Source of the DNA: an uncultured Alphaproteobacteria bacterium
GTDB lineage: Bacteria; Pseudomonadota; Alphaproteobacteria; CAAHEQ01; UBA3637
Reading direction: 5' to 3'
Length of the DNA: 39,045 bases
Assembly (NCBI GenBank): GCA_944392785.1
Contig: CALXXW010000025.1
Coordinates: forward strand, 107,264 to 146,308
Under the pieces are notes generated by a model. That model ran no database searches, had not been told where the DNA came from, and was given only the letters and a program-made list of their open reading frames with translations. The position numbers and the translations under genes are program-made. This document shows, in pieces, positions 7,446 through 34,621 of this stretch (the stretch's first letter is position 1; every line of letters starts with the position of its first letter).

Positions 7446-8627
7446 ATGAAAAAAGTGTATCAGTTTTGGTTTTGGTTGAGCGTATCGGTCGGAGTGTTTT
7501 ATGTATCGAGTCATTTGATAAAGCATTTTTTTTATCATCCGATGGTTTCGGTTGTTATGCCGACGTATAACCGAGCCAATGCCTCGTTAAGTTATGCGAT
7601 TGACTCGATTCTCAATCAAACGTTTGATAATTTTGAACTGATTATTATTGACGATGGTTCCACGGATAAGACGCCGGAGCTTGTCAAGCGGTATCAGAAA
7701 AAAGACAAACGTATTGTCCTGTTAAGAAATGAAAAGAATCAAGGTATCATAGACAGTTTAAATCGAGGACTTGATGTTGCCAAAGGTAAATATATTGCCC
7801 GGATGGATGATGATGATGTCTCATTGCCGGAGCGTTTGGAGCGTCAGGTCGCCGTTATGGAGGCTCATCCGGAAATTACGGTTCTGGGTACCAGTATCAC
7901 GGGCCGAGATTCCTTGGTTAGGCTGCCCCCTAAAGAGGCGACCCCCCGTCTGATAGATCCGGAGGAAGTAGAAATCAATACGTATTTTTCTTCAGGATTG
8001 GCTCATCCTAGCATTATGATACGCAAAAGTTTTCTGGATGAATTCAATCTTCGTTATGATAAGGCATATCTGTATGCAGAAGATTGTGGTTTGTATAAAG
8101 ATATTCTGAATCATGGCGGACGTCTGAGCACGTTGCAAGAACCATTACTTCGATTTGGTTTTATTCAAAAGTTGAATAAGCCGGATAAATATGCATCAAC
8201 ACAGTATGAAACATTTAAGAAAATTCAGCGTGAGAAAATCCAGCCTCTTTTAACCCCTGATGAATCTTTATTGGGCCACTCACAGAGCACCCTCAAGAAG
8301 TGTACCTTGATGAAGCAGTTGGCGACAGCGAATCGAGACAAGCATATTTTATCTCAGGAAAAGCTGGAAGAAATGATTGCGAAACAATGTCCGCAAGACA
8401 TGGAAAGTGCTATTTGGGTTAAACATCCTTACTGGAGCGATTTTGTGGAGATAATCGGTGAGAAACGCTTACGCCGTGCGCAGGATGAAGCTTCCCTTAT
8501 CGGACAGAAAGGAAAGGAAATAACGGTGAAGTGGGATAAATGGGATACGGAGATTTATCGAAAAATAGATGATAAAACTTGGGAATATGTCCGAGATCAG
8601 GATGGGCATGTTAAAACAAAGAAATAA
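7446..8627 (+). CDS. Family 2 glycosyltransferase with C-terminal KWD module
   Basis: 393 residues. A hydrophobic segment (about 8-25) precedes a GT-A domain: SVVMPTYNRAN at 35-45, IIIDDGSTD at 66-74 and an acidic DDDD metal site at 121-124, then LAHPSIMIR and a later AEDCGLYKD acidic pair. It should move a sugar from a nucleotide donor; the acceptor is unknown. After residue 320 there is a separate module, HxxW at 327-330 and KWDKW at 362-366, which recurs in the proteins at 12438 and 32627. The N-terminal anchor leaves topology unclear, since the GT domain should face the cytoplasm. It stands alone between two terminators with its own promoter and GGGAG site. Confidence 0.85.
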   Translation: MKKVYQFWFWLSVSVGVFYVSSHLIKHFFYHPMVSVVMPTYNRANASLSYAIDSILNQTFDNFELIIIDDGSTDKTPELVKRYQKKDKRIVLLRNEKNQGIIDSLNRGLDVAKGKYIARMDDDDVSLPERLERQVAVMEAHPEITVLGTSITGRDSLVRLPPKEATPRLIDPEEVEINTYFSSGLAHPSIMIRKSFLDEFNLRYDKAYLYAEDCGLYKDILNHGGRLSTLQEPLLRFGFIQKLNKPDKYASTQYETFKKIQREKIQPLLTPDESLLGHSQSTLKKCTLMKQLATANRDKHILSQEKLEEMIAKQCPQDMESAIWVKHPYWSDFVEIIGEKRLRRAQDEASLIGQKGKEITVKWDKWDTEIYRKIDDKTWEYVRDQDGHVKTKK

Positions 8628-12437: not shown

Positions 12438-12764
12438 ATGTTGTCTTTATTTAAAAATCCAAAGTTTTACTTTGTTGTCTTATTGATTTTGGTTATTGTG
12501 ACGGGTGTAGCGTTGTTTTGGGTTGAACGCCAAAATGAGGCGAAATTGGCTGAAGTTGCCGCTATTGAAGAGATTGTCTTTGAGCATCCGCAATGGTCAA
12601 GCGATATGATTTTAGAGGGTGATAATCGTATTTATCGTGCGAATTCACCGGGAGAGCAAGCAACCATTATTGAAAGAACGCCGACTTCTTTTACGATCAA
12701 GTGGGATCGTTGGGGAACGGAAACGTTCGAAAAACAGGAGAATGGTCATTATAAGAAAAAATAA
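12438..12764 (+). CDS. Small one-TM protein carrying the KWD module
   Basis: 108 residues, no known family. Residues 10-30 form a single membrane segment (FYFVVLLILVIVTGVALFWV) behind a short basic N-terminus, suggesting the C-terminal part is periplasmic. Almost all the rest is the module also found at the ends of the proteins at 7446 and 32627: HxxW at 50-53, RIYR, ATII, then KWDRW at 88-92, TETF, and a final lysine cluster. Here the module stands alone on an anchor. The end overlaps the start of the hydrolase gene by 23 bases. Confidence 0.8.
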   Translation: MLSLFKNPKFYFVVLLILVIVTGVALFWVERQNEAKLAEVAAIEEIVFEHPQWSSDMILEGDNRIYRANSPGEQATIIERTPTSFTIKWDRWGTETFEKQENGHYKKK

Positions 12765-13557
12765 TATCGCTCCGCAAGTCTATTTAGAGACAGCCACACA
12801 CGAATCCTTGTGCGTGGCTGTTTCGTGTTTTGCTCCGGATACGGTTCAGACGCCGACTGTTTTATTAACGCATGGGTTGGCAGGGTTTGTAGAGGAAGAT
12901 TTTTTAAAAGCTGTACGACAGGCATACCTGGAAAGCGGATGGCGTGTTGTTTCTTATGATGCGCGCTATGGCTTTGGTCGGGGCGAGGGACCCTTGGAAA
13001 AAGCGTGTTTGACTCATTTTATCGAGGATATGGCAACAGTGATTCAATGGGTTTCCCAACAATCTTTTTATAGGGGACGATATGCTTTATGTGCACACTC
13101 TTTGGGAGCAGGGGCAGCGTTATTCCACGCCATACAAAGGCCAACAGCGGTTGAGCATCTGGTACTTCTTGCTCCCGTTTATAATGGGGAAAAGTTGTTG
13201 GCCTCTTATCGTCAATATAAACCGGCATGGCTTACTGCTTGGCAAGAAAGCGGACGATTGTCTCGGTCACATCCGACGGATTCGACGCGTCATGGGTTTA
13301 TCAGTTGGGCTCATATGGAAGATGCTTGTCGTTATCGGTTGGAGGAACGGGCTTTTGTTGTCAGAGCTCCGACATTGATGATATATGGTGATCGGGATAT
13401 TTCCTCAACGGGTGCGATGAATGAGGCTTTATATCGGTGTTTTACATGTCCGTGTCGGATGGTGTCTTTTGCCGGTTGTCGCCATACGTTTCAAGGGTAT
13501 GAACAAAAGCTGGCAATAGAATTGAGAACATTCCTTGAAGACAGGAAAGGTGGTTAA
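12742..13557 (+). CDS. Alpha/beta hydrolase
   Basis: 271 residues. The fold shows LLTHGLAGF (oxyanion region), the nucleophile elbow AHSLGAG, an acid in MIYGDRDIS and the histidine in GCRHTFQGYE, so the catalytic triad appears complete. Substrate unknown; the size and DARYGFGRGEG stretch resemble small serine esterases/acyl hydrolases. The start at 12742 is chosen as the first ATG downstream of an AGGAG and near the preceding stop; spacing to AGGAG is very short, so initiation is probably coupled to the overlapping upstream gene. The frame is open further upstream to 12619, which I reject. No signal peptide. Confidence 0.82.
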   Translation: MVIIRKNNIAPQVYLETATHESLCVAVSCFAPDTVQTPTVLLTHGLAGFVEEDFLKAVRQAYLESGWRVVSYDARYGFGRGEGPLEKACLTHFIEDMATVIQWVSQQSFYRGRYALCAHSLGAGAALFHAIQRPTAVEHLVLLAPVYNGEKLLASYRQYKPAWLTAWQESGRLSRSHPTDSTRHGFISWAHMEDACRYRLEERAFVVRAPTLMIYGDRDISSTGAMNEALYRCFTCPCRMVSFAGCRHTFQGYEQKLAIELRTFLEDRKGG

Positions 13558-13558
13558 T

Positions 13559-14386
13559 ATGTTGGGTGCTGTGATTGGGGATATCATTGGATCGACCTAT
13601 GAATTTAATAATGTCAAAACGACACGTTTTCCGTTGTGGACCAGCTTATCTCGTCCGACGGATGATACAGTTTGTACGTTAGCGGTAGCGGATGCTTTGT
13701 TGACGGGTGCGGATTTTGCCGAGCGTTTAAAGTATTGGGTACGATTATATCCGTTTGTCGGTTATGGGAAAAAATTTTTAGAATGGGCTTTGTCCGATGA
13801 GCAGAAAGGCGGATACAGTTGGGGAAATGGAGCTATTATGCGGTTGTCTCCGGTCGGGTTTTTGTTTCCTGACTTTAAAGCTGCCTTATCTTGTGGCACA
13901 GCTTTGACGCGCGTGACGCATAATCATCCGATGAGCTTGACGGCAACGGCTGCATATTTAAAGGCCATGATGTTGCTTAGACAACGGACGCCCCCAAAAG
14001 ATATTAAACATATTATTGAAAAAACATATGGTTATTCATTAAGCCGTTCTGTGGACGAGATACGTCAAAATTATCATGCCTTTTACGTTCGGTGTGAACG
14101 AACCGTTCCCGAGGCTATGACTTGTGCTTTGGAGGCAACTTCCTTTGAAGAAGCCATACGTCTTGCCGTCTCTTTAGGGGGAGATAGTGACACATTGGCA
14201 TGTATGGCCGGTGCTTTGGCCGAATGGCGGTTTGGTATCCCAACCGATATGAAGAAGCGTGCTCTGAGTATGCTAGATGCGCGTATGCAGCATGTGTTAA
14301 AACGGCTGTATGCGGCCCCTTGTTTGATACAAAAAATCGATGCCGTCTCTCCTTTGAAACAAGGCATCGATTTTCAGCGTATTTAG
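13559..14386 (+). CDS. ADP-ribosylglycohydrolase (DraG) family protein
   Basis: 275 residues. The family removes ADP-ribose from proteins or small molecules using two magnesium ions. Here GAVIGDIIGSTYEFNN opens the protein, PTDDT follows near residue 38, and SLGGDSDTLACMAGALA near 200 provides the second metal-ligand cluster; both acidic clusters look intact. Substrate cannot be deduced. The ATG at 13559 follows the hydrolase stop by one base and has AGGAAAGG upstream; a TTG further upstream is rejected. The last 18 codons contain a strong inverted repeat that is probably a terminator. Confidence 0.88.
   Translation: MLGAVIGDIIGSTYEFNNVKTTRFPLWTSLSRPTDDTVCTLAVADALLTGADFAERLKYWVRLYPFVGYGKKFLEWALSDEQKGGYSWGNGAIMRLSPVGFLFPDFKAALSCGTALTRVTHNHPMSLTATAAYLKAMMLLRQRTPPKDIKHIIEKTYGYSLSRSVDEIRQNYHAFYVRCERTVPEAMTCALEATSFEEAIRLAVSLGGDSDTLACMAGALAEWRFGIPTDMKKRALSMLDARMQHVLKRLYAAPCLIQKIDAVSPLKQGIDFQRI
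14333..14374. terminator. Terminator hairpin inside the 3' end of the DraG-family gene
   Basis: A perfect 12-bp inverted repeat, AAAATCGATGCC at 14333-14344 and GGCATCGATTTT at 14363-14374, with an 18-base loop. On the minus strand it ends in six T residues and lies just past the stop of the convergent gene at 14393, so it most likely ends that transcript. It may act more weakly on the plus strand. Confidence 0.75.
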
Positions 14387-14392
14387 GAATGA

Positions 14393-15403
14393 TTAACGCT
14401 CTTTAGATTTGTCCATCAAACGTTTATCAAGAGTCACTCGACGCCAGCGAGAAATGTTGTCCGCCGCCAAGCGCATAACGCTTAATGTGGGAGCTGTTTT
14501 ATAGAAGCTTACCATTTTCCCACCATGGCTCCAAATGGACGCTAATATCTCAAAAGCGGTGTTGAGGGTTTGAATTTTCGGTTGAGGAATATCTGTTGCT
14601 CTTGCCACACGTTCGGCACTTTCTTCAATCATTGTTTTGTTGAAACGACGTCCTCGTTTTAACTCATATTGCATTAAGCATCCCCATTTTATAGCAACCT
14701 CTAAAGCTAATTTATTGGGCCCTTCTAGTTTTTCTTGCAGATTGTTGAAAAACTCTTGATGGCCGGTAGCATCAAATGTTTCGGTTGCAATCTGTTCTTT
14801 AGTTAGAGCATTTTCCGCCTGACGCTGTTTATCCCAGAGGTTGGCTAATTTAAGAGCTTGCTTATAGGCAGGGCTTTTACGATACTCATATGACAAGTGA
14901 TACAGTTTTTCCCATAGCTCTAAAGCTTCCTCTTGACGCAATCCTTCATAGAAAAAGAAAGGTATTCCGCGGATGACGGAAAATTGCGTTGTATGCATGT
15001 GGTTTGCCCAGTAGCTGATGTTTTGGATGGGTTGTCGAACAGCTCCGCTGCGTGTGGGGCAAGTTCCTAATCTTACCAAATAATGATTCGGGAATAATTT
15101 AAAATGCTGTTTAGCGTTTGCACTCATTTGTTGGTATTCCTCTGTCCGTTTATAAGCTTTCAAGACCAAAGCAGCCGTATCTTGATATAGTTTTTTTAGA
15201 GTATCCAAGCTCATCCCGCAAAAAACAGGTAAAGCAGCCTCTGGGCCGATCATTAAGACTATACCTTTCTTAAAGGTTGCTTGCTCTAACGCTGTTTTCA
15301 ATACCTGATCAACATGCTCTGTCGGTTTCGGTATATAAAGATCGATTGAACCAGCACGATTTAATTCTTCTTCAAATTCTTTGGGCATACTTTCTATGAA
15401 CAT
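14393..15403 (-). CDS. Unrecognised soluble protein
   Basis: 336 residues, no family recognised. No signal peptide or membrane segment. Composition is helical, rich in Lys, Glu, Leu and Ala, with aromatic-rich patches such as FPNHYLVRLGTCPTRSG, IPFFFYEGLRQEEA and IKWGCLMQYELKRGRRF. The start at 15403 follows AAAGGAGAAAGT; an ATG nine codons upstream at 15430 is less likely. A TTGACA/TACAAT promoter lies just upstream. Convergent with the DraG-family gene, sharing a terminator hairpin. Confidence 0.8.
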   Translation of the reverse strand: MFIESMPKEFEEELNRAGSIDLYIPKPTEHVDQVLKTALEQATFKKGIVLMIGPEAALPVFCGMSLDTLKKLYQDTAALVLKAYKRTEEYQQMSANAKQHFKLFPNHYLVRLGTCPTRSGAVRQPIQNISYWANHMHTTQFSVIRGIPFFFYEGLRQEEALELWEKLYHLSYEYRKSPAYKQALKLANLWDKQRQAENALTKEQIATETFDATGHQEFFNNLQEKLEGPNKLALEVAIKWGCLMQYELKRGRRFNKTMIEESAERVARATDIPQPKIQTLNTAFEILASIWSHGGKMVSFYKTAPTLSVMRLAADNISRWRRVTLDKRLMDKSKER

Positions 15404-15441
15404 ACTTTCTCCTTTGTTGTTATATGACATATGATGCTTTT

Positions 15442-15469
15442 ATTGTACCATACTTTTTCAAGCTGTCAA
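15442..15469 (-). promoter_or_regulatory. Minus-strand promoter for the 14393-15403 gene
   Basis: Read on the minus strand: TTGACA (15469-15464), 16 bases, TACAAT (15447-15442). The -10 is preceded by TATGG, also seen at the dCMP deaminase promoter (TATGGTACAAT in both). Confidence 0.75.
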
Positions 15470-15523
15470 ACGCTTCTATGTAACCCATTGTTTTTGGTCT
15501 ATTTTTTTTGATTTTTTTAATTC

Positions 15524-15552
15524 TTGACTTTTGAAAAAAAATAGGATAGAAT
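15524..15552 (+). promoter_or_regulatory. Promoter for the glycyl-tRNA synthetase gene
   Basis: TTGACT at 15524-15529 and TAGAAT at 15547-15552 with a 17-base spacer, about 40 bases before the start codon. The upstream flank is rich in A and T runs, like an UP element. Confidence 0.75.
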
Positions 15553-15593
15553 GCTCTCCCAAAAAGGAACAATGGTAAAAAAGGAGTATAAGT

Positions 15594-16961
15594 ATGCCCG
15601 CAACAACAATGGACCCGTTGGTGTCTTTATGCAAACGTCGTGGTTTTATCTTTCAAAGTGCAGATATTTATGGCGGATTACAGGGGGTTTATGATTTTGG
15701 ACCGTTAGGGGTAGAGTTGAAAAATAACTTAAAAGCCGCCTGGTGGCGCTCTATGGTCTATGAACGGGATGATGTCGAGGGGTTGGATGCCTCTATTTTA
15801 ACACATCGTCGCGTGTTATACTACAGTGGGCATGAACAAACATTTACCGATCCGTTGACGGATTGTAAGCGGTGTAAGAACCGATTTCGGGCTGATCATA
15901 TCAAAGATGGGAAATGCCCTGAATGCGGTAGCACGGAATTGACCGAGCCACGTATGTTCAACTTGATGTTTAAAACAACGGTTGGGCCGATTGAAGGTGG
16001 TGAGAATTATGCTTATTTACGTCCGGAAACGGCTCAAGCTATTTTTACGCAATTTAAAAACGTTGTTGATTCAACGGCCAGAAAAGCGCCGTTTGGTATT
16101 GCTCAGATTGGTAAAAGCTTTCGAAATGAAATCACGCCGCGCAATTTTATTTTTCGCGTTCGTGAGTTTGAGCAGATGGAATTAGAGTTTTTTGTCAAAC
16201 CGGGAACGGACTTAGAGTGGTTGGAGACATGGAAAAATAACCGCTTGAAGTGGTGGGAAGATCAAGGCCTTGATTTAAATAAAATGCATGTTTTAACGGT
16301 ACCCAAGGAAGAGTTGGCTCACTACTCTAAAGCAACTTATGACTTAGAATATCAATTCCCTCATGGGATGGAAGAGTTAGAGGGTATTGCCGATCGTCAA
16401 GATTATGATTTAGGAAACCATACCCGCTATCAAAAGGATTTAGATATCCAAGCTCACGTCCATGAAAATAAAGATTCAGAGGCTAAATTGGCTCTATTTG
16501 ATGATGAAACGAAAAAGTGGTATGTTCCTTTCGTTGTAGAACCCTCGGCTGGCGTAGAGCGCGGTGTTTTGGCCGTTTTGACGGAGGCTTATACCGAGGA
16601 GCCATTACCAAATGGAGAAACCCGAACGGTCTTAAAGCTCAAAAAGCATTTGGCGCCTGTCAAAGTGGCGGTTATCCCCTTAAAGCGGAATAATTCGGAA
16701 ATCATGAAAATGGCTCATGACATAAAGGCTATGTTATTAAAGACCGGAATTGGTCGTGTTATGTTAGAGGACTCAGGTAATATCGGTAAAGCTTATCGTC
16801 GTCATGATGAAATTGGAACACCGATTTGTGTGACGGTTGACTTTGATAGTATTGAAAAGCAGCCAGCGACCGTTACAATCCGTAATCGAGATACGATGGC
16901 TCAGGAACGCATAGAGGTCGCTCAATTAGCTGATTACTTAAAAAATTTCTTCTTAAAATAA
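15594..16961 (+). CDS. glyQS: Glycyl-tRNA synthetase, single-chain homodimeric type
   Basis: 455 residues; charges tRNA-Gly with glycine. Class II catalytic core: [20 protein letters not shown] (residues about 13-32), motif 2 [20 protein letters not shown] near 180-200, and motif 3 in [15 protein letters not shown] near 315. A zinc-type insert has CKRC and CPEC. The C-terminal anticodon-binding domain contains [10 protein letters not shown] and [18 protein letters not shown]. This is the single-chain form found in archaea, eukaryotes and some bacteria; most alphaproteobacteria use the separate GlyQ/GlyS subunits, so transfer is possible. AAGGAG precedes the ATG. Confidence 0.95.
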
Positions 16962-31607: not shown

Positions 31608-31662
31608 TTTTTGATTTGTTTTTTACTTTACTTTTGGGTTGAAATCATATAAACATAATTTC

Positions 31663-32625
31663 ATGACTCAACATGAACCTAAAAAGCAGTTTAAAGTTGC
31701 TGTTATTGTTCCGGCTTTTAACGAGCAAGCCAACCTGGCACATCTGACGGATGAGCTGGTTTCGATTCTGAAGGCTTATCCGGATTATGAGATTTTGTTC
31801 GTGAATGATGGTTCGACCGATGATACTCTTTCTGTTTTAAAGCAATTACGGCAAAAAAATACGCATATCCATTATGTATCTTTTTCACGGAATTTTGGTC
31901 ATCAATATGCGTTAAAGGCCGGGTTGGATTATGTTGATGGAGATTGTGTTATCTCAATGGATGCAGATTTACAGCATCCGCCCCGGTTGATACCGGCACT
32001 GGTAGACGCCTGGCAAAGCGGAGCCTATGATATCGTTTCCACGCAGAGACGGGAAATTAAAGAAGAAAGCTGGTTTAAAAGGGTGTCGTCTCGTTTATTT
32101 TATCGATTTTTTAACTTCATAACGGGGTTGTCTCTACCTCCGGGAGCAGCCGATTTTCGCCTGTTGGATCGACGGGTGGTTGCAACGTTGAGGGCGTTGC
32201 CCGAGCGGGGGTTGTTTTTGCGAGGAATGATTTCTTGGATTGGCTATCGCCAAAAGATTATTCCTTACACGCCGGCGCCGCGATTTGCCGGAAAAAGCAG
32301 TTATACGTTGAAGCGTATGTTGGCTTTGGCGATTGTCGGTGCGACTTCGTTTAGTTCAAAACCTTTACGATTGGCGGTCTATCTTGGTTTAAGTGTGGCA
32401 TTGTTGGGCTGTTTACTCACGGCTTACGTGCTTTATATGCGATTATGGAACGGCTCTGTGATTTCGGGATGGGCATCGCTGATGTGTGTCGTGTTAATTT
32501 TGGGGGGGGCTCAACTATTTGTCATGGGTATTATCGGGGAGTATATAGGGATGATTTTTGGGGAGGCAAAGCATCGTCCGACCTATATTGTTGCAGAAAC
32601 GAGTTTAGAGCAAAAAAGGAAATAA
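31663..32625 (+). CDS. Polyprenyl-phosphate glycosyltransferase (GtrB/DPM1-like GT2)
   Basis: 320 residues. The GT-A domain has VIVPAFNEQANL at 15-26, EILFVNDGSTDDT near 43-55 and the DXD site SMDADLQHPP near 99-108, then GLSLPPGAADFRLLDRRVV. Two C-terminal membrane segments follow (about 230-250 and 265-290). Such enzymes move a sugar from a nucleotide to undecaprenyl phosphate for use outside the membrane. The ATG at 31663 is preferred over a TTG at 31639. It ends one base before the next gene, which may use its lipid-linked sugar. Confidence 0.88.
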   Translation: MTQHEPKKQFKVAVIVPAFNEQANLAHLTDELVSILKAYPDYEILFVNDGSTDDTLSVLKQLRQKNTHIHYVSFSRNFGHQYALKAGLDYVDGDCVISMDADLQHPPRLIPALVDAWQSGAYDIVSTQRREIKEESWFKRVSSRLFYRFFNFITGLSLPPGAADFRLLDRRVVATLRALPERGLFLRGMISWIGYRQKIIPYTPAPRFAGKSSYTLKRMLALAIVGATSFSSKPLRLAVYLGLSVALLGCLLTAYVLYMRLWNGSVISGWASLMCVVLILGGAQLFVMGIIGEYIGMIFGEAKHRPTYIVAETSLEQKRK

Positions 32626-32626
32626 G

Positions 32627-34621
32627 ATGGTATCAAACATAAGAAAAAAAATCAGGAAATGGGGCATGAAGCTTTATGCAAAATTGCCAAGGGATATGCA
32701 AGAAAATTTGATGCAAGCAACAAACTGGTTGATACCTAAAATGCCTAAGCTTATGGGCTTATGGAATAAAAACGGGGATATTATCGCGACGGTTGGTATA
32801 ACGTTGATAGCCTTTTTTTATTTATTTGGCTGGCAAACATTGGATATTTACAATTTGGGATTGGTGACAAAAGGCGGTGATTTTTCCGTTTCGTATTATG
32901 GCAGTGTGTTGTATCGTATGGATTCATGGCGCTGGCCGATTTTTACCCATTTAAATTTAGCCTATCCTTATGGTATTTCCGTACATGGGACAGACGGAAG
33001 CCCGCTCTTGTCTGTTATCTTTAAAGCGCTACACAGTCTGTTTGGATTAAGTCCCGAAGTCCAGTTTGTTGGTATTTGGATGCTTATTTCCTATGTGCTT
33101 CAGGCTTATGTATCTGTTTTGATTTTTCGGCATGCTTTTAAAAGTAAGTTTTTAATAACCATCGGTGCCTTGTTCTTTGTATCGGCTCCGATTATGATGA
33201 TGCGAGTTTTTGTGCATATTAATTTGATGCCGCATTTTTTATTGCTCTTTGCCATTTTGATGTATTTAAATAATCGTCTGACACGTAAAGAGTGGGTATA
33301 TATGGCTGTTTTAATGACCTTGGGAATTTTAACGTGCCCTTATTTTCTACCGATGCAAGCCGGCTTTTTTGCCTTATTGATATATCGTCAATGGGCGGAT
33401 AAAAAAATTTCCTGGTGGATGATATTCAAAGGCATCAGTGCCTTGGGCCTTGTTTTTTTATTTTGGTATTATATGCTGGGGATGATGTCGACGGAGCAAC
33501 AATTAGCCAGCGGCGGTTGGCGCAGTCTGGGTCTTAATTTGACGGCGTTATTTAATCCGATTTGGAGTAAGTCGCAGGTTTTTAATACATTAACCCCCAA
33601 AGCGGATTTTGATGCAGATAACTATTTTGGCTTAGGTCTTTTAATTTTGTTGGTCATTTTGTTTTTCTCCGTGAAAGATTTGTTTCGTCGAGATAATTTA
33701 CGGCGGCATTGGCCGTTGGCGTTATTGTTAAGCGGCTTTTTCCTTTTTGCGCTATCCAGTCAGGTCAAGTTGGGAACGGCAACGGTTTTGGACTATAAAC
33801 CGGGGGCTCTGATTGATTGGTTAGGGAGTGTCTTTCGATACTCCGGTCGATTTTTTTGGCCTATTTGGTATTTATTAGCATTCTTTTTGTTGAAGACGTG
33901 TGCCAAGCAATTCCCTAAGAAGGCTTATATTTTATTGCCATTACTTTTGGTCGTTCAAATTTGGGATCTTTGGCCGACGTATCAGGCTAAAAAAAGCTTT
34001 GTTGATACGACAAAACCCTATGTTTATCCGTTAAAGTCTCCGGAGTGGAACCGTTTGACCAAGCAGTATAGTAATGCCTTTATCTTTGCTCATAACAAGA
34101 ATTATGCACCGATTTGGAAATGGGCTATTAAAAATCACAAAAACGTCAATTATGGTTTTTTAAATCGTCCTTCCCGAAAGACGCATACGTTAATCAATCG
34201 AGTTCGTGAACAAATACTGTCCGGTTATATCGGGAAAGAGTATAGCGATTATTTCTTTGTGATTGATGAAGATTTGATGAAGCGTATAGATGAGGCGGCT
34301 CGCGTGAATCCGGCCGTAGCCGATTTAAAGAAAAAAATTCAAAAATGGGACGGTATTGATATTTTGGAGTATCATCCCGAATTTGACAATGTGGTCAGAA
34401 ACTTTAAGCGCCGAACTATTCCGACGACGCATAACTATTGGAGTGCTGAATTGGTTCAGGTAAGTCCCTATCGGTTGTATCGTCAACTTGATAACGACAG
34501 AGATTATGCCACCATAGTGCGTATGGATGATGAATATCTTGTGTTAAAATGGGACCGCTATGCTACAGAAGAGTTCAAAAAGGAAGCGGATGGTCGATAT
34601 CACCAAGTGACAAAAAAGTGA
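32627..34621 (+). CDS. Large GT-C-like membrane protein with C-terminal KWD module
   Basis: 664 residues with about ten or more membrane segments between 50 and 460. The first periplasmic loop has KGGDFSVSYYG with an acidic residue, then AYPYGISVHGTDGSPLL, in the style of GT-C transferases that use lipid-linked sugars; it most resembles the DUF6311 type, from memory. A soluble part follows (about 465-600) and then the module shared with the proteins at 7446 and 12438: HxxW at 603-606, YRLYR, ATIVR, KWDRY at 641-645, TEEF. The tail is expected to be periplasmic. Translationally linked to the GT2 before it. Confidence 0.7.
   Translation: MVSNIRKKIRKWGMKLYAKLPRDMQENLMQATNWLIPKMPKLMGLWNKNGDIIATVGITLIAFFYLFGWQTLDIYNLGLVTKGGDFSVSYYGSVLYRMDSWRWPIFTHLNLAYPYGISVHGTDGSPLLSVIFKALHSLFGLSPEVQFVGIWMLISYVLQAYVSVLIFRHAFKSKFLITIGALFFVSAPIMMMRVFVHINLMPHFLLLFAILMYLNNRLTRKEWVYMAVLMTLGILTCPYFLPMQAGFFALLIYRQWADKKISWWMIFKGISALGLVFLFWYYMLGMMSTEQQLASGGWRSLGLNLTALFNPIWSKSQVFNTLTPKADFDADNYFGLGLLILLVILFFSVKDLFRRDNLRRHWPLALLLSGFFLFALSSQVKLGTATVLDYKPGALIDWLGSVFRYSGRFFWPIWYLLAFFLLKTCAKQFPKKAYILLPLLLVVQIWDLWPTYQAKKSFVDTTKPYVYPLKSPEWNRLTKQYSNAFIFAHNKNYAPIWKWAIKNHKNVNYGFLNRPSRKTHTLINRVREQILSGYIGKEYSDYFFVIDEDLMKRIDEAARVNPAVADLKKKIQKWDGIDILEYHPEFDNVVRNFKRRTIPTTHNYWSAELVQVSPYRLYRQLDNDRDYATIVRMDDEYLVLKWDRYATEEFKKEADGRYHQVTKK

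Follow-up and report, generated by a model that had tools for sequence, protein, structure and literature searches.

KWD, a small domain of predicted all-beta fold found with glycan-building and glycan-sulfating enzymes in gut Alphaproteobacteria and Akkermansia-type Verrucomicrobia

Three proteins encoded in the window, by which we mean the whole 39,045-nucleotide stretch of DNA under analysis, share a tail that we refer to as the KWD domain. The results presented below provide good support for KWD as a real, unnamed domain family of about 60 residues with a clear enzymatic context. According to the predicted models, it folds on its own into an all-beta accessory domain, attached to enzymes for glycan building or sulfation. 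In the literature that we searched, there was no text on a KWD domain or on periplasmic enzymes of the type described here.

The KWD domain in the window

The features of the window discussed here are all encoded on the plus strand. The first carrier, P0001 (7446..8627), is a GT2 glycosyltransferase of 393 aa with an N-terminal anchor, helical in our model between residues 2 and 29, and a C-terminal KWD domain (copy 1, residues 322-393, 8409..8624). Its assignment to CAZy family GT2 follows from a PF00535 match (E = 1.2e-39, residues 35-197) with the DDGS, DXD-type and ED motifs, and D70-G71-S72, RMDDDD and AED are all invariant in the alignment of this protein (A7). The second carrier, P0002 (12438..12764), is a 108-aa protein with one TM segment, orthologous to the L067-L070 proteins, in which KWD copy 2 occupies residues 45-108 (12570..12761). 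The neighbours of its gene that are kept across genera (window 12438-16961) encode an ADP-ribosylglycohydrolase, an alpha/beta hydrolase and a class-II tRNA synthetase. The third, P0003 (32627..34621), is a polytopic DUF6311 (GT-C-like) protein of 664 aa (PF19830, E = 3.1e-13) that ends in KWD copy 3 (residues 599-664, 34421..34618). Copy 1 (9.6e-26 in the search of its own genome) and copy 3 (1.5e-28) were scored with an HMM for which both were among the six seeds. Directly upstream of P0003 lies another GT2 (31639..32625; PF00535, 5.9e-36), with neither an anchor ahead of the GT2 domain nor a KWD; it looks like a polyprenyl-phosphate sugar synthase.

The initial annotation had placed an H-x-x-W pattern, with KWD following, from residues 327, 50 and 603 of P0001, P0002 and P0003 respectively, and this is where we find it. 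The spacing from W to KWD is 31 in P0001 and 34 in P0002, as had been given, and 35 in P0003, for which 34 had been reported. The idea that these tails are related was borne out: the three are homologues and represent a single small all-beta domain, with pairwise BLASTP E values of 3e-12, 7e-11 and 1.7e-6. When P0002 was used as the query against the whole 1.12 Mb genome, the search recovered not only the other two tails, at 1.7e-7 and 3.6e-7, but also three further copies, which brings the genome to six. These additional copies belong to two anchored GT2 proteins (contigs C4 and C1) and to an exported arylsulfotransferase (C1) whose KWD domain is N-terminal to the enzyme domain. An HMM built from the three window tails alone, as had been proposed, matched 245 ORFs (158 distinct) in the DNA of relatives, an enriched set because it had been fetched with the six-copy HMM, and none of the same ORFs when these were reversed. 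Since KWD tails are short and lysine-rich, their likeness could be viewed as a chance resemblance or a low-complexity artefact, but this is scarcely credible and is refuted by the pairwise and HMM significance values, the empty reversed decoys and the confident fold. DNA similarity among the three copies is only short and insignificant, which rules out a recent duplication, in agreement with the initial annotation. The view that the tail lacks a named domain also held: a Pfam search with 28 KWD domain copies returned nothing above chance, the tail was unmatched among the 25 best NCBIfam matches listed for the full proteins, and no chain among PDB sequences matched the KWD profile, TarS and RmlT included.

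The AlphaFold2 model of the P0002 domain has seven strands at a pLDDT of 90.6. The expected common fold is seen in the two tails that were folded, those of P0001 and P0002, whose seven strands correspond and follow one another in identical order. The full-length P0001 model has a mean pLDDT of 63.9 and is poor except for the KWD tail and parts of the GT2 domain; for this reason its inter-domain docking was left unread. Comparison of the KWD fold with the PDB (Foldseek, E <= 0.001) gave no match, the best probability among the 50 PDB matches listed being 0.82, for the cathepsin C exclusion domain (TM 0.46), and nothing significant was found among viral proteins. Over 204 KWD copies, the most conserved residues are W (98%), W (approximately 100%), H (96%), E (94%), R (88%) and F (88%).

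Distribution and enzyme partners

Of the 43 genomes sampled from the same family, which are also the entire order sampled, 24 were matched by the six-copy HMM, with 1-15 matches per carrier and a best match outside the window's own genome of 5.5e-25. There were no matches in approximately 380 other Alphaproteobacteria or in 397 other Proteobacteria, samples that overlap in part and together comprise about 780 genomes; this rules out a general alphaproteobacterial domain. A scan of named genomes, which used eight close sequences and was therefore restricted to KWD-x-WGT-type copies, identified as carriers uncultured gut Alphaproteobacteria (from roe deer cecum, sheep rectum and other sources) and one Akkermansiaceae genome. 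Within the order of this last carrier (Akkermansia-type Verrucomicrobia), KWD was present in 29 of the 289 genomes, and a phylum-wide Verrucomicrobial sample gave matches only within members of this order set. A single contaminated contig behind the Akkermansiaceae match is ruled out, since the domain turns up on several contigs and in many related genomes. An origin on a phage or plasmid is likewise ruled out by the lack of any match in the viral contigs, phages and plasmids searched. When alphaproteobacterial and Akkermansiaceae sequences are compared, the KWD-GT6 unit aligns as one piece (36% over 375 aa), a sequence relationship that suggests transfer of the unit between the two phyla. In Verrucomicrobiales with genomes of 5-8 Mb, short exported proteins (L166-L169; 134-205 aa, whole open frame) contain one distant KWD-like domain and no enzyme, and these may represent an older form of KWD.

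In the Alphaproteobacteria, the partners of KWD are GT2, arylsulfotransferase, GT6, GT11, a GT80-type sialyltransferase, one GT8, one polysialyltransferase-like protein and a DUF6311 protein, and there are about 20 short one-TM KWD proteins. Verrucomicrobial copies accompany GT2-like domains with GT6, GT10 with a CTP-transferase (CTP_transf_3), GT31/GT32-like domains with a Gb3-synthase-like domain, GT11 and GT92. There are one to four KWD copies per chain. They are linked to carbohydrate-active enzyme domains, and their place in the chain varies, some lying before and some after the catalytic part. The predicted recurrence at glycosyltransferase C-termini and on short one-TM proteins of related gut Alphaproteobacteria was seen. 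KWD is not confined to C-termini, however: in GT6, GT11 and most arylsulfotransferases it comes before the catalytic domain. In the GT6 proteins it lies between the anchor and the catalytic domain. By eye, GT6 copies (L066:2365-3675, L058:3234-4562 and L077) have NGD or NGT near the position of the bacterial NXN or mammalian DXD motif. The arylsulfotransferase of the window's own genome (L008) is assigned to AssT by PF05935 (7.4e-55), PF17425 (7.9e-15) and a hydrophobic N-terminal signal, and reads signal peptide, KWD, arylsulfotransferase. Three relatives (L062, L063 and L206) have a conserved cluster that comprises an arylsulfotransferase-KWD gene, two GT2-KWD genes, a lipoprotein-like ORF, an ORF that is VirB8-like by eye and a GT-C-like KWD protein. 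Carriers that are not enzymes also occur in Verrucomicrobia (ankyrin-repeat, kinase-like and Lys-rich proteins); the ankyrin-repeat and kinase-like proteins of L172, L174, L175 and L185 have one to several KWD copies toward the C-terminus.

Side of the membrane in Alphaproteobacteria

Several lines of indirect evidence strongly indicate that alphaproteobacterial KWD is on the periplasmic side, where it would often be braced by a cross-strand disulfide. With few exceptions, these copies contain 0, 2 or 4 cysteines; nine have a single cysteine, and most of these are truncated where the match ends. At two neighbouring strand positions, cysteines are present at both in 36 copies, at one in 3 and at neither in 113 (Fisher 2.5e-31). 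The coupling persists in 91 representatives under 50% identity, a set from which relatedness is only partly removed (29 both, 3 single, 59 none; Fisher 2.8e-20). Among Verrucomicrobial copies, none has both strand cysteines and 10 have one. The strongest hydrophobic segment falls within the first 70 residues in 70 of 102 alphaproteobacterial carriers of at least 300 aa, versus none in Verrucomicrobia. In P0001, the pair C286/C315 (8301..8390), spaced by 29 residues and invariant in the A7 alignment, lies in a helical hairpin (modelled helices 282-299 and 304-314) that joins the GT2 and KWD domains. A cysteine pair ahead of KWD is found in all 51 alphaproteobacterial GT2-KWD proteins, 27-30 residues apart and usually 29, and in 32 of these the catalytic domain has no cysteine at all. 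The charges flanking the anchor are biased towards an N-in orientation in 39 of 49 cases and equal in 6, and the GT2 of L042 carries a lipobox.

The window's own genome also encodes a 791-aa arylsulfotransferase-GT2 fusion that lacks KWD (G000:C13, L010:8103-10475, minus strand). The arylsulfotransferase domain (residues 138-474) is followed by GT2 (505-673) and by the same pair of hairpin cysteines, here at 759 and 789, and a single hydrophobic segment is present at the N-terminus, with nothing membrane-like between the two domains. The E. coli arylsulfotransferase ASST is periplasmic and disulfide-dependent (PMC7810732), and GT2 domains of the type found in the fusion are therefore probably periplasmic as well. 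By this analogy, the fusion would be evidence of a decisive kind for a periplasmic GT2.

Overall, this unexpected compartment for KWD glycosyltransferases in one phylum is fairly well supported. Nucleotide sugars are not expected in the bacterial periplasm, and the location appears to be unexplained by standard bacterial biochemistry. In 40 family genomes, searched for a cysteine oxidant and for a supply of the sugar donor, we found neither DsbB or VKOR nor the eukaryote-type nucleotide-sugar transporter PF04142 (Nuc_sug_transp) above the Pfam cut-off, which counts against the periplasmic reading. Slow background oxidation of ASST has been reported when DsbA is missing (PMC7810732). Cys-rich repeat proteins (CYSCD-type) are encoded at L069:8780-10000 (minus strand) and L206:3-992, in genomes with no detectable DsbB/VKOR. 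Taken together, the background oxidation and the Cys-rich proteins mean that an oxidant other than DsbB/VKOR may exist in these genomes.

If instead the anchor were N-out, the GT2-KWD proteins would face the cytoplasm and their cysteine pairs would serve otherwise, for example in metal binding. Such an orientation would solve the donor problem, agrees with the failure to find DsbB and VKOR in the 40 family genomes, and would match the Verrucomicrobial KWD enzymes, which have no N-terminal anchors. However, the N-in charge bias, the lipobox of L042, the signal-peptide KWD copies on arylsulfotransferases and the 791-aa fusion all argue in the opposite direction, and the cysteine coupling is lost exactly in the non-anchored, Verrucomicrobial set. 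We therefore regard a cytoplasmic orientation as quite unlikely, a judgement that concerns the compartment and is separate from those made below on function.

Possible functions and comparison with known systems

Our best guess for the function of KWD, plausible but held tentatively, is a lectin-like module that holds the glycan acceptor. Alphaproteobacterial KWD would be held in the periplasm by an N-terminal helix, a signal peptide or a lipobox, or as part of a polytopic GT-C-like protein, and the GT2, GT6, GT11 and GT80 catalytic domains of the same chains would also be periplasmic, in a Golgi-like layout. KWD may then bind a glycan common to the partner enzymes and keep it near the active site, with up to four copies per chain providing avidity, while the short one-TM protein would present or gather the same glycan at the membrane. 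The partner chemistries share glycan acceptors rather than folds, and KWD may lie before or after the catalytic domain, as a binding module would be expected to. Thus diverse enzyme folds with one kind of substrate, a movable position and tandem copies all fit, and going by the partners only, KWD is suggested to be a carbohydrate-binding module or lectin. Its presence on the ankyrin-repeat, kinase-like and Lys-rich Verrucomicrobial proteins weighs against this, as does the lack of a PDB fold match pointing to a binding site.

The initial annotation had favoured a docking or assembly module, in which KWD domains bind each other or a common scaffold and the one-TM protein serves as the hub. Among the fetched loci, most carrier genomes do show short KWD proteins; the arylsulfotransferase, two GT2 proteins and GT-C-like protein clustered in three relatives all bear KWD; and tandem copies occur. 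Nevertheless, at the thresholds used, G019 and G023 have only a small anchored copy, G018 only a GT-C copy, and G001 and G014 only one two-copy polytopic membrane protein. Genomes with one KWD protein only leave no KWD partner for a pure KWD-to-KWD docking. Moreover, the conserved neighbours of the one-TM gene are not glycan genes, and in Verrucomicrobia several enzymes are already joined in one chain. On balance, docking is the main rival to acceptor holding but seems less likely.

GT2 enzymes of wall-teichoic-acid synthesis have C-terminal modules with a stabilising or oligomerising role, and KWD might do no more than stabilise, space or oligomerise its enzyme in the manner of these modules or of a Golgi stem. 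RmlT and TarS, both GT2 enzymes with C-terminal modules, are among the nearest solved relatives of the P0001 model, KWD occupies the stem position in GT6 proteins, and the best conserved residues (W, W, E, R and F) could belong to the core. This structural role is unlikely, however: some KWD proteins contain no enzyme domain, and the arylsulfotransferase-GT2 fusion encoded in the window's own genome lacks KWD, which indicates that KWD is not needed to fold a GT2 of this type.

Returning to the lectin-like reading and its compartment, we tentatively propose that this lineage of gut Alphaproteobacteria may possess a periplasmic, Golgi-like glycan-finishing line. It would consist of type II or lipid-anchored GT2, GT6, GT11 and sialyltransferases together with arylsulfotransferases, marked and organised by KWD and using donors that reach the periplasm. 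If this is true, bacterial glycosyltransferases of the nucleotide-sugar type are not bound to the cytoplasm, and a route of donor supply should exist. In two phyla, KWD marks enzymes of families that are responsible in animals for blood-group, Lewis-type, sialylated and sulfated glycans, and it thus offers a sequence handle for host-like glycan synthesis in uncultured gut bacteria.

Golgi glycosyltransferases, such as mammalian GT6, have a type II anchor, a stem and a lumenal catalytic domain. The predicted features that the KWD enzymes have in common with them are an N-in anchor, a non-cytoplasmic catalytic domain and disulfides, and the enzyme families overlap, as with GT6 and sialyltransferases. 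They differ in being bacterial, in carrying KWD, in belonging to bacterial-type sequence families and in having no PF04142 transporter above cut-off. Bacterial O-antigen glycosyltransferases, in contrast to the type II enzymes of the Golgi, have been described as having no TM domain (PMC4202792). Bacteroides ovatus GT6a, which resembles the catalytic domain of mammalian GT6 (PMC3961637), shares the PF03414 catalytic domain with the KWD-GT6 proteins, but the latter add a membrane anchor and KWD ahead of it. The bacterial arylsulfate sulfotransferase AssT (3elq) is likewise exported and composed of PF05935 and PF17425, whereas KWD copies are added here and one version is fused to GT2. TarS and RmlT also combine a GT2 catalytic domain with a C-terminal accessory part, but nothing in the PDB matches the fold of KWD itself. 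Finally, KWD resembles carbohydrate-binding modules and lectin domains in being small and all-beta, in its tandem copies and movable position and in its carbohydrate-active partners; no sequence or fold link connects it to any known one, and its lectin role is putative.
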